DNA of 64,000 nt from Halanaeroarchaeum sulfurireducens (GTDB taxonomy: Archaea > Halobacteriota > Halobacteria > Halobacteriales > Halobacteriaceae), in the NCBI RefSeq assembly GCF_001011115.1, contig NZ_CP008874.1:682001-746000 (forward strand). The letters are read 5' to 3'. The translations under genes and the position numbers were made by a program. Below are positions 20,849 through 24,407 of this stretch, piece by piece. The notes below the pieces were generated by a model that was given only the letters and a program-made list of their open reading frames with translations, was not told the origin of the DNA and ran no database searches. Each line of letters begins with the position of its first letter. The stretch's first letter is position 1.

Positions 20849-21257
20849 CGAACAGGCGGTGGCACACGCTCCACGAGGGGGCCACCGCGCTCCCGCCACG
20901 CCCCCGTGGCCGGTCTCAGAGCACACACCGCCCTGGACCGGTCTTCGTATGTGAAGGTTCGTTCCGTGCTGTCCGTCGCGGGGCGGTTTTGCCGATCATC
21001 CGAAAGGGGGGAAGGCGGACCCCGCCCGAATCGATTGCGTCGCGCCGAAAACGCGGCTTTTTGGTCCAGATTTTTAGTCGTCGCGAGGGACCGGAGGTCC
21101 CTTGGACCGTGCGAACGGGGGATGAGCGACGACCGAAGGGAGTCGCTTGCAAAACGAGCGGAGAACGAAGTGAGCCGTGAGTTAGAGCGCGCCGTGAGCA
21201 GAAGGGGTTCCCGCAGTGCCGAAGGCACGAGGAAACCCCTCGTCTAAAGGAGAGACA
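20849..21257. repeat. Gene-free stretch with structured haloarchaeal-type intergenic repeat
   Basis: No credible coding frame. The first ~120 nt show nothing clear. From about 21050 it holds a TTTTTGGTCCAGATTTTT-like segment, then nested inverted repeats: AGGGACC/GGTCCCT (21086-21092 with 21096-21102, 3-nt loop) inside GGTCCA (21063-21068)/TGGACC (21103-21108). It continues with purine-rich GAGCG/GAAGTGAGC phrases and a hairpin at 21203-21240 whose tip is GTGCC-GAA-GGCAC. I have seen this kind of composition between haloarchaeal genes, but no function is known to me. It may be the insertion platform for the adjacent IS. Confidence 0.55.
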
Positions 21258-21297
21258 GCGCGAGTTCCCCACCCCACCGTGGGCGGGGGTGAAGCGC
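21258..21297. repeat. Candidate left-end subterminal hairpin of the IS
   Basis: GCGC (21258-21261) pairs with GCGC (21294-21297); inside, CCCC and CCCA (21267-21270, 21273-21276) pair with TGGG and GGGG (21280-21283, 21285-21288). Imperfect hairpin one base from the tnpA stop; could be recognised by TnpA and could also end the tnpA transcript. Confidence 0.55.
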
Positions 21298-21298
21298 G

Positions 21299-21706
21299 TC
21301 ACTCCGGCGCGTGTTCCGTCTCTTCAATATACCGCTCAACCACCTCCTTCGATACTGCACCCGTCGTTCCCACGTAGTACCCGACCTTCCAGAACCCACC
21401 ACCCCAGAAATACGACTCCCGAATCTCGGGGTCCCGCTCCAGCAAGTGCTTTCCTGAGTACGACTTGAACTGTCGAGCGATGTTCGAAGGGCTATACTTC
21501 GGATCTGTTTGCACGAACAGGTGAACGTGGTCGTCTGCAATCTCCAACGCCAGAATCTCGTGTCCAAAGTGGTCAGCAGTCTCATCAAACAACTCCCGCA
21601 CATCGTTCTCAACCACATCGAGAACAGGGTGGCGGTACTTCGGACACCACACGAAGTGATACTTGCAGGAACTAACCGAATGTGCATGACTGCGATACTC
21701 CTCCAT
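21299..21706 (-). CDS. tnpA: IS200-type Y1 (HUH) transposase
   Basis: 135 residues. The HUH pair is in EIADDHVHLFVQ (His60, His62) and the catalytic Tyr is Tyr126 in EVVERYIEE, as in IS608-type TnpA. N-terminal SSCKYHFVWCPKYRHPVL and GGGFWKVGYYVGTTGAVS are typical. It would cut single strands at the left and right ends next to the hairpins and move the element by peel-and-paste. Starts divergently from tnpB with about 45 nt between the chosen starts. Confidence 0.93.
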   Translation of the reverse strand: MEEYRSHAHSVSSCKYHFVWCPKYRHPVLDVVENDVRELFDETADHFGHEILALEIADDHVHLFVQTDPKYSPSNIARQFKSYSGKHLLERDPEIRESYFWGGGFWKVGYYVGTTGAVSKEVVERYIEETEHAPE

Positions 21707-21750
21707 CCCTAATCCCTACATTTATGACAGTATGGAACGATTGTCAATGT

Positions 21751-23055
21751 ATGGGTGAAGAAGCCACGAAAACGATTCAGACGCGCCTTCACGTCGCGTC
21801 TGGTAAACGGTCGTGGCTTCACGACGCCCGCCTCGCATCACGCGAGATCTTCAACGACACCATCCGCCTCACACAACAGGGATACACGCGCACCGAGATA
21901 CAGGAAGCGGTTGACCGCGACGACTTCTTGCGGAACAACAAGTGCGCAGTCGTCGGCAAAGCCCTCCAAACGTGGGACTCCTACCAATCACTCCTCGACT
22001 GGTGGCACGAACAACACGACCCTGACGGAGGGAAACCGACACCACCCAGCACCGACACATCTGGTGCGTATCCGCTCGTGATGGCGCACACGGAAGGCTA
22101 CCGCCTCACCGTGGACGACGACACCAACCGCGTACAAGTCCGCATCAGCCCGAAACCTTACAAGAAAGTGAAAGGGAACCTGCGCGGTGAACAGGACGCG
22201 ATGGATAAACTCCGAGATGCCATCACGTCGGACGGGGTAGATGTGGGGCAGGCCGAACTCCTGTACCGCGATGGCGTGTACTACCTACACGTCACGGTCA
22301 CACGCGAGTTCGACGTGCCCGACCCCGACAACAGCGACACACTCGTCGGCATGGACATCAACGAGCGCACCGTCGCACTCACCGCCCTCGACCGCGAGAC
22401 AATGCGGACGAAGGGCACACTCGTCCTCGATTATGGGCGGGTCAAGCAGGAACGACAACGTTACCATACGATTACGAAACGCTGTCAGGAACACGGCAAG
22501 ACGAGCATCCACCGGAAACTCGGTGACAAGGAAGAACGATTCACCGAGTGGGTGTTACATCGGCTCTCCCGTGCTGTCGTGGAGTTCGCAGACCAGTTCT
22601 CGAACCCGGTCATCGTGTTCGAGGAAATGAGCGGAATCCGCGAGGAAATCAAGTACGGGTCGTATATGAACCGCCGATTGCACAAACTCCCATTCCACAC
22701 GTTCGAGACGTTCGTCTCGTACAAGGCGACGTGGCGAGAGATTCCCACGGATACGGTGGATTCATATTATAATTCGAAGACGTGTTCCTGCTGTGGTGAG
22801 CGCGGGTATCGGCAGGGACGGCGGTTCCGGTGTCCCAACGACGAGTGTGACGTGATGCAAGACCACGCTGACCGAAATGCGTCGGTGAATATCGCGTGGC
22901 GTGAGAAAGCGAAACTCGATGGTAACGAGTCGGATTACCGGACTCACAAAACCCAGCCACAAGTACGGTTGGTGCGTCTGTCCGGGTCGGGGCGTGTAAG
23001 CCGCCCAACCTCATCCCGCTCGCTTGCCGAGCAGGGAGTGCTAGCGCACAGCTGA
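21751..23055 (+). CDS. tnpB: TnpB, RNA-guided RuvC nuclease of the IS
   Basis: 434 residues from the ATG at 21751. Longer starts at 21724 and 21682 exist, but a TATA-like CTACATTTA just before 21724 puts transcription start close to 21751. RuvC-I Asp202 in VGMDINERTVAL, RuvC-II Glu291/292 in VIVFEEMSGI, zinc finger Cys345/348 and Cys361/366, and RuvC-III Asp374 in QDHADRNASVNIA are all present, so the nuclease should be active. TnpB homologues are guided by an RNA ending in the element's right end and protect the element by cutting empty donor sites (established for IS605 TnpB). Confidence 0.93.
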   Translation: MGEEATKTIQTRLHVASGKRSWLHDARLASREIFNDTIRLTQQGYTRTEIQEAVDRDDFLRNNKCAVVGKALQTWDSYQSLLDWWHEQHDPDGGKPTPPSTDTSGAYPLVMAHTEGYRLTVDDDTNRVQVRISPKPYKKVKGNLRGEQDAMDKLRDAITSDGVDVGQAELLYRDGVYYLHVTVTREFDVPDPDNSDTLVGMDINERTVALTALDRETMRTKGTLVLDYGRVKQERQRYHTITKRCQEHGKTSIHRKLGDKEERFTEWVLHRLSRAVVEFADQFSNPVIVFEEMSGIREEIKYGSYMNRRLHKLPFHTFETFVSYKATWREIPTDTVDSYYNSKTCSCCGERGYRQGRRFRCPNDECDVMQDHADRNASVNIAWREKAKLDGNESDYRTHKTQPQVRLVRLSGSGRVSRPTSSRSLAEQGVLAHS

Positions 23056-23095
23056 GGGAACTACAAAAGCCTCGGGCCACCGCGCCCGAGGTTGT
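22950..23095 (+). ncRNA. Candidate omega/reRNA scaffold at the 3' end of tnpB
   Basis: TnpB guide RNAs usually overlap the tnpB 3' end and run to the right end of the element. Here the stretch after the stop (23056-23095) ends in a perfect hairpin, CCTCGGGC (23070-23077), loop of 6, GCCCGAGG (23084-23091), preceded by ACTACAAAAG. The 5' limit is arbitrary. The guide would lie immediately after the element's right end, at roughly 23096-23120. Inferred from position and structure only. Confidence 0.45.
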
Positions 23096-23122
23096 TTACG
23101 GTGTTCTTTGCGTGGTAGTGCT

Positions 23123-23258: not shown

Positions 23259-24407
23259 TCAGGGGTTACTATTGCTGAGGATGTCGAAAATATCGACAGC
23301 CTTCCATTCTTTGTATCGCTGTTTCCCGGTTGTTTCCTCGAGAACACCGTCAGCTTCCAGCTGAGCGATGGCATTCCGCGCCGTTTGGCCAGAGACATCC
23401 AGCAGTTCGCTGACTTTGTTCGCATCGACGTAGGGCTCCTGGAAGAGTCTGATTCCGAGTCTGTCAGCAGCTGTTTTACCGCTTCCGTACCGTTGTTCGT
23501 ACTCTTGTCTGAGTTCGCGGAGGTCCTGCGTTCGATCGTATGCGGCTTTGGCCTGCTCTCGGATTCCATTGACGAAAAACTCTATCCATGGGCCCCATTC
23601 CCCACGTTCGCTCACAGCCCGCATTTTTCGAACGTACTCGATCTTGTGTTCGTTGAAGTAGGCACTAGGGTAGAGATATGGCTGTTCCAGATATCCGTGC
23701 TGGATTAATTGTAGTGTGATCAGGATCCGGCCCAGCCGACCGTTCCCATCTTCAAATGGGTGAATTGTCTCGAATTGGTAATGTGTAACTCCTATCTCAA
23801 CGAGTGGTTCGTCACCACTCTCGCTGGTAATATAGTCTACGAGGTTCTGCATGAGACTTGGGACTTCTCTCGGAGGTGGGGGTATGAATGGCTCTTCGCT
23901 GGCAGATGGAGGCGGTATGTGTACTGACGAACTGCGGAATTGACCTACTTCATTCGCATGACCCCGAGCTTTATCCATGAGTGTTTGATGAAGAGCTTGT
24001 AACAGCCCAATGTCAATTGTCCCGCCCTCCTGAACCTCCTCTGCACCGTCGCGAATAGCTGATTCGTAATTAAGTGCCTCTTTGACACTTGTATCTGTTA
24101 TCGGGCCGTCGCCCACTTCACGCGGCTTGAACATTTTCTCCATGTTGATGTCTCCGCCCTCTATGAGGATAGATTCGACTGCTTCACGCCGAACCATTGT
24201 CGTATACAGCAATGGGCTTGTGTCAGATTCGGCCCCAATGGCAGCTAGTCTTCCCAGTTGGAAAATCGCATCACGTAGTGTCGATTCAAACCCGTCTGGG
24301 AGCGAGATCTCCTTAGCAGGGGGTAGGGGATCTGGAATGTACCACTCACCGTCTCCAAATGACCGGTATTCTCCTGGTACAGATTCTGGGAGCGAAGGTG
24401 GAGCCAT
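23259..24407 (-). CDS. Fic-family AMP-transferase with N-terminal inhibitory helix and C-terminal winged helix
   Basis: 382 residues. The Fic core motif HPFEDGNGRLGR (216-227) is complete, so the enzyme is predicted to transfer AMP from ATP to a protein hydroxyl. An inhibitory motif (S/T)xxxE(G/N) is seen as SILIEG (79-84), the class II arrangement that blocks the ATP site from within the same protein. The flap region includes HANEVGQFRSSSVHIPPP. The C-terminal ~70 residues (VDANKVSELLDVSGQTARNAI) look like a winged helix, suggesting self-regulation. Lower G+C than core genes and position next to an IS point to transfer. No antitoxin partner is needed or seen. Confidence 0.9.
   Translation of the reverse strand: MAPPSLPESVPGEYRSFGDGEWYIPDPLPPAKEISLPDGFESTLRDAIFQLGRLAAIGAESDTSPLLYTTMVRREAVESILIEGGDINMEKMFKPREVGDGPITDTSVKEALNYESAIRDGAEEVQEGGTIDIGLLQALHQTLMDKARGHANEVGQFRSSSVHIPPPSASEEPFIPPPPREVPSLMQNLVDYITSESGDEPLVEIGVTHYQFETIHPFEDGNGRLGRILITLQLIQHGYLEQPYLYPSAYFNEHKIEYVRKMRAVSERGEWGPWIEFFVNGIREQAKAAYDRTQDLRELRQEYEQRYGSGKTAADRLGIRLFQEPYVDANKVSELLDVSGQTARNAIAQLEADGVLEETTGKQRYKEWKAVDIFDILSNSNP

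Follow-up and report, generated by a model that had tools for sequence, protein, structure and literature searches.

An intact haloarchaeal IS200/IS605 element and related protein-free PATEs as candidate guide-only transposons

The window, meaning the whole 64,000-nucleotide stretch of DNA that was analysed, covers positions 682001-746000 of the 2.21-Mb genome of the haloarchaeon Halanaeroarchaeum sulfurireducens. It carries an IS200/IS605 element, the features of which are given below in window coordinates, with the evidence for each in brackets.

21243-21246, plus strand: TCTA target tetranucleotide, retained left of the element, and predicted TAM (homologue left ends; empty sites)
21247-23099, no strand assigned: IS200/IS605 element of 1853 bp, with divergent tnpA and tnpB (conserved homologue boundaries; empty sites of other copies)
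21266-21290, no strand assigned: left-end imperfect hairpin (palindrome in the sequence; three PATEs of this genome carry the 71-bp left end as well)
21299-21706, minus strand: TnpA, Y1 HUH transposase of 135 aa, with H60, H62 and Y126 (Pfam, NF033573, structure alignment)
21751-23055, plus strand: TnpB, RNA-guided nuclease family, 434 aa, with D202, E291 and D374, and zinc residues C345, C348, C361 and C366 (NF040570, structure alignment, homologues)
22934-23099, plus strand: omegaRNA scaffold, overlapping the tnpB 3' end (Rfam sot2652; fold and covariation across 33 aligned RNAs)
22996-22999, plus strand: hairpin 2 loop sequence GUAA, pseudoknot partner (helix with 99.2% pairing across 31 distinct rows)
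23068-23093, plus strand: right-end hairpin (conserved in aligned RNAs)
23096-23099, plus strand: UUAC, the four terminal bases of the element (TEM), pairing with 22996-22999 (alignment, pseudoknot helix)
23100-23119, plus strand: predicted native guide, derived from the flank, with a length of 20 bases assumed (flanks vary between copies after GTTTAC)

Both genes are intact, as the original prediction had proposed from their catalytic residues. TnpA matches Pfam Y1_Tnp (E 1.4e-39) and NF033573 (158.3 bits; cut-off 55), and has the two histidines and one tyrosine of a Y1 HUH transposase, with H60, H62 and Y126 aligning to the HUH and tyrosine region of the solved IS200-like transposases 2ec2 and 2f4f. 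TnpB scores 124.5 bits with NF040570 (guided_TnpB; cut-off 100), aligns with solved TnpB and Cas12f proteins across the RuvC and zinc part, and keeps both the RuvC D-E-D residues and the zinc ribbon complete. Among 36 homologous loci in genome contigs, 23 have a full-length open frame (24 including the window), the remaining 13 being disrupted, truncated or located at the edge of a contig. All 24 full-length sequences retain D202, E291 and the four cysteines, residue 374 is D in 23 of them and E in one, and dN/dS values of the full-length homologues relative to the window copy are 0.10-0.16. The window TnpB is predicted to be a guided DNA nuclease. In the whole genome (G000) there are 20 TnpB matches, 18 of them over the cut-off, compared with four TnpA matches.

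The ends of the element had been placed at 21258 and 23120, and both have been revised. On the left, the element starts at 21247, directly after TCTA, and the same arrangement is found in 31 of the 33 IS copies whose left end could be read, the exceptions being L047 and L061. On the right, alignments of the window to five close family copies stop at 23099 in four cases and at 23100 in one, and GTTTAC forms the RNA end in 33/33 aligned RNAs (the window and 32 homologues), after which the flanks are dissimilar. Two of the homologous loci, L054 and L075, share a common insertion site. The end at 23120, which the Rfam match also gives, is ruled out because homologues diverge after 23099, and because the sot2652 model fits poorly in its final part; 23100-23120 is flanking sequence, corresponding to the predicted guide.

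A comparison with empty sites had been suggested as a means of fixing the ends. No empty site of the window copy was found in 25 other family genomes, but other copies provided ends, which differed from those originally placed: for a Halobacterium IS copy (L042), a joined-flank query with base alignment found the empty-site joint spanned in 4/8 relatives, with TTCTA kept. On these other copies, the end hairpins, lack of target duplication and insertion 3' of a fixed short target that define IS200/IS605 elements are all seen. Hence the conserved homologue boundaries, together with the empty sites of other copies, place the element at 21247-23099, with TCTA as its target and predicted TAM, and with its putative guide beginning at 23100. 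A search for a second genomic target of this guide gave one site with two mismatches, one of them in TCTA, compared with two matches to a reversed-pattern control, and so gave no sign of such a target.

Several further observations concern the surroundings and variability of the element. A dispersed palindromic repeat, GGGGTTCCCGCAGTGCCGAAGGCACGAGGAAACCCC, adjoins its left end at 21203-21241, with near copies at L005, L006 and L007 and in genomes G001 and G004. A Fic-family protein, encoded on the minus strand at 23259-24407, also adjoins the element; its best model is SoFic, with a score under the cut-off of that model. At the left ends of eight loci (L044, L046, L057, L062, L063, L065, L159 and L177), inserts of around 50 nt consisting of small palindromes break the left-end hairpin.

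The guide RNA of the element is of an already known type. Rfam family RF02657 (sot2652) matches 22934-23120 with 180.3 bits, well over its gathering score of 61, although the last ~22 positions of the model align poorly at 23100-23120, and appear to represent the guide of the founding copy rather than scaffold. The hairpin originally noticed 3' of tnpB is real, and is conserved among homologues at 23068-23093. Alignment A3 comprises 33 of 37 RNAs (the window and 36 loci, with L067, L073, L078 and L079 left out), and its 31 distinct rows have 98.5% of cells paired in the scaffold fold, with 15 cells changed on both sides against 4.4 in shuffles. The number of pairs with such both-side changes (3) is not above that in shuffles (2.9), because the sequences are very alike. 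The loop 2 motif is GTAA in 32/33 RNAs, and ATAA in L068.

Haloarchaeal omegaRNAs, including sot2652, have already been studied in Halobacterium salinarum, and parts of that work describe both a pseudoknot between loop 2 and the end of the RNA and a right-end hairpin (PMC12558985). The window element resembles the Halobacterium VNG2652H/RF02657 IS200/IS605 elements in its TnpA and TnpB families, the position of its scaffold over the tnpB 3' end and its right-end hairpin, and shares with the sot2652-type omegaRNAs the pseudoknot joining loop 2 to the terminal motif, as parts of PMC12558985 describe it. There is no difference of kind, the divergent gene order and TCTA of the window element being details. 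Hence, given the sot2652 match and the portion of the Halobacterium omegaRNA work cited (PMC12558985), the window system is of a known kind, and taken alone is one more haloarchaeal TnpB. The original prediction of an intact IS200/IS605 element with a flank-read TnpB guide is therefore well supported in all but its exact ends; the testable haloarchaeal TnpB system that it proposed, with an omegaRNA of the sot2652 type, would be a further member of a kind for which parts of PMC12558985 already report work in H. salinarum. In short, the window element is intact, but ordinary once its ends are corrected, and the new part would instead be a set of related elements elsewhere.

Three other places in the same genome, all outside the window, carry the 71-bp left end of the IS at 93% identity. 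Each of these copies opens a 400-bp protein-free element, or PATE, terminated by a related hairpin and TTCAC. These three elements share the IS-type left end, the right hairpin type and the TCTA target, and have unique flanks; two copies are identical, and the third has two differences. No TnpA or TnpB match lies within ~1.5 kb of any of them, and a joined-flank query found no empty site for the three. Across genomes, 59/64 PATE loci, some of which are redundant, likewise have no tnpA or tnpB match within ~1.5 kb. Mobility is evident from a Halobacterium PATE (L106), whose empty site is spanned in 3/8 relatives, in one case cleanly (..GACTTCTA|ACGCAC..), in one with an extra A and in one weakly. 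These sequences therefore have the IS605-type palindromic ends, absence of a transposase gene and mobility by which PATEs are recognised.

The interior of the PATEs resembles an omegaRNA of the same lineage as that of the IS, consisting of a 5' domain, a hairpin forming a pseudoknot, the right-end hairpin and a terminal pentanucleotide. Of four PATE loci compared with Rfam, three have sot2652 as their best family, at 23-31 bits, which is under the gathering score of 61, such that PATEs are not counted as sot2652 members, and are related to them only through a second model, R1. This covariance model was trained on the 33 TnpB-linked RNAs, using their 5' domain and including no PATE. Across the whole genome, in a first look that scored 150 of 1332 candidates, R1 gave exactly four matches at E<=0.05: the IS itself, at 106.8 bits, and the three PATEs, each at 28 bits (E 0.012). 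This first look missed two Halobacterium PATEs that are found by R1 with filters off, at 34.5 bits, alongside a Halarchaeum PATE at 20 bits. Among 19 further PATE loci, R1 finds 13, at ~20-44 bits (19.6-44.5), and misses six, four of which have a ~54-nt insert in stem 1. Inserts of ~50 nt, made of the same kind of small palindromes as those in the left ends above, also break stem 1 of the PATE RNA in PATEs L161-L166 and L211. The 3' half of the PATE RNA is unlike that of the IS RNA.

An alternative is that TnpA simply mobilises PATEs as ordinary end-only derivatives, with interiors that fold as single-stranded DNA for transposition and resemble RNA without any TnpB function. This would accord with parts of PMC3119063, which describe PATEs as transposase-free derivatives of IS605-type ends. 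However, a model trained on TnpB-linked RNAs picks PATEs out of the genome (with 150 of 1332 candidates scored), and the pattern of substitutions argues for a structured RNA extending well beyond the ends. Alignment A5 contains 17/25 PATE RNAs; the other eight, five with long inserts and three that are divergent, were inspected singly. RNAalifold predicts 72 pairs for these 17 RNAs, of which 30 have a compensatory change. With the pseudoknot included, there are 77 pairs, with 97.7% of cells paired against 86.7 in shuffles, and with both-side changes in 31/77 pairs and 146 cells against 18.8 and 50.9 in shuffles, a level reached in 0 of 500; when partners are slid, at most 7 pairs and 19 cells have both-side changes. 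This covariation spans ~290 nt, going beyond the end hairpins.

The pseudoknot links the interior to the end of the element, its loop co-varying with the last five bases, which again is at odds with end-only derivatives. It is paired in 17/17 PATE RNAs, as GUGAA:UUCAC in 15 and GUAAA:UUUAC in two, although independent switches are few, because the rows of the alignment are related. The divergent PATE L181 also has GUAAA:UUUAC, L206 has GUGGA:UUCAC, and the TnpB loci L183 and L184 have GUGAAC opposite GUUCAC. Hence sequence and covariation together reveal the 5' domain, loop-to-end pseudoknot and right-end hairpin of an omegaRNA scaffold in PATEs. They are well supported as RNA genes by this covariation and by homology, whereas their role as working guides is putative. 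That a close TnpB was not found in 8/18 PATE genomes also fits end-only derivatives, an explanation that we consider unlikely overall.

A TATA-like box lies 48-49 bases upstream of the CCTC motif in 21/30 PATE rows, presumably, from the spacing rule, where a haloarchaeal promoter for the PATE RNA is to be expected. The predicted transcript would run from ~20 bases before CCTCGCAAAAC, past TTCAC and into 15-20 bases of the flank, which would thereby be transcribed as a guide.

PATEs recur in multiple copies across haloarchaea. Two DNA searches matched 30/391 and 23/391 genomes of the class, with a union of 35/391 in which some matches are only pieces, or the ends of TnpB elements. There were matches in 14 plasmid records, two of them over >=80% of the query, and no match in phage records. 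A close TnpB (E<=1e-100) is present in 64/391 class genomes. It was found in 10/18 genomes with strong full-length PATEs, which were chosen by inspection of matches, against 54/373 others (p 1.1e-4, ignoring kinship), or in 9/17 once this genome is excluded (p 3.7e-4, likewise ignoring kinship). For genomes with any PATE match, the corresponding figures were 15/35 and 49/356 (p 8e-5, again with kinship ignored). A close TnpB at this threshold was not found in the other 8/18 strong PATE genomes, in which the partner may therefore be more distant, may have been missed or may not be needed.

The PATE RNAs might also serve a TnpB other than that of the window. TnpBs of a related line, including L183 (40% identity), have RNAs that score 42-58 bits with R1 (57.8 bits at L183 and 42.4 bits at L184), and these RNAs end in TTCAC, as PATEs do; within this genome, L080 also ends in GTTCAC. 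Against this, R1 returned a single match, of 14.7 bits and E 0.29, when applied to the genome's other 19 TnpB-like loci, L080 included. Hence the window's TnpB is, on the R1 result, the only one in the genome with an RNA related to that of the PATEs, and service to another TnpB seems quite unlikely.

The window element is therefore best read as the autonomous member of a system in which TnpA would use the end hairpins to excise the IS as single-stranded DNA, with insertion then directed to the 3' side of TCTA. The omegaRNA bound by TnpB would derive from the 3' end of the tnpB gene and have host flank, from 23100 onward, as its 3' tail; TnpB would cut the re-sealed donor site, consisting of TCTA and the guide; it is proposed that recombination would therefore copy the element back. 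We infer that the PATEs are moved by TnpA in trans, while they probably use TnpB in trans, most likely that of the window. If TnpB does use PATE RNA, then each PATE would therefore make its own guide and protect its own site. Overall, we consider it reasonably probable that the PATEs are guide-only transposons, employing TnpA in trans, and with their RNA used by a TnpB that is most likely the window's.

Alternatively, PATE RNAs could be decoys or regulators, which bind TnpB and keep it off the IS guide without directing any cuts. The elements of the scaffold are kept, and the guide is whatever flank adjoins, with binding by TnpB and cutting being predictions. Yet the pseudoknot and the junction between scaffold and guide are also kept, which a decoy would not obviously need, and insertion directly 3' of TCTA makes TCTA and the guide the empty site. 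Hence we regard decoys as very unlikely.

Stand-alone omegaRNA loci were reportedly found for IscB by Altae-Tran and colleagues in 2021. These would be similar to PATEs in being guide RNAs without an adjoining nuclease gene, and would differ in that the PATE omegaRNA would be the sole cargo of a TnpB-type transposon. PATEs themselves were defined in Haloquadratum (PMC3119063, in part), and a PATE of the virus HRTV-DL1 is described in a portion of PMC10544981 as strongly transcribed at one end, and compared with an H. salinarum ncRNA. The elements described here are like both in being protein-free and multicopy with IS605-type ends, and the relevant portions of these two papers (PMC3119063 and PMC10544981) do not describe PATEs as omegaRNAs.

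The HRTV-DL1 PATE had no R1 match above 6.7 bits, and is therefore taken to belong to another PATE family and rejected as direct support, with nothing carrying over but the transcription of a PATE as such. Its strand in the part of PMC10544981 concerned (antisense to ORF3) also conflicts with the right end being read on the plus strand. HgcC (RF00062) matches this PATE weakly, at L219:972-1101 (21.4 bits; cut-off 50). The 3' consensus of HgcC resembles the right ends of other TnpB elements in this genome (L082, L083, L084 and L091), for example GGGCGGGGAGGATGTCAA; hence HgcC may represent either an omegaRNA or the right end of an IS605 element.

The Sulfolobus islandicus TnpB (PMC10640517) is likewise archaeal, with a TAM from the left flank and a guide-matched target beside it, although that TAM is TTTAA rather than the TCTA predicted here, and the part of the paper concerned notes no guide-only elements. 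A short section of PMC7290912 deals with a PATE-like, ends-only sequence, and the word PATE is absent from the main text of PMC12558985, PMC12477157 and PMC10278001. A literature search found no paper combining TnpB, PATE and guide RNA as whole words, while TnpB and PATEs do co-occur. No paper listed by further searches names guide-only PATEs in its title or the opening of its abstract, although they may be reported in Meers et al. 2023, Altae-Tran et al. 2021 or Gomes-Filho et al. 2015.

More broadly, we judge it slightly more probable than not that haloarchaea harbour widespread guide-only transposons, the sole cargo of which is an omegaRNA expressed from its own promoter, and which rely on a complete element at another genomic site for the TnpA that moves them and the TnpB that cuts their donor sites. 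If this is true, then many elements, each supplying its own guide, would share one TnpB, in the way that many crRNAs share one Cas protein. This would explain how protein-free IS605 derivatives survive despite the loss inherent in single-strand excision, and would bear on the many TnpBs and few TnpAs in this genome (20 matches against four). Guide-only PATEs would also represent natural in-trans guide RNAs for a salt-adapted TnpB, which could be tested in haloarchaea that are both growable and transformable.
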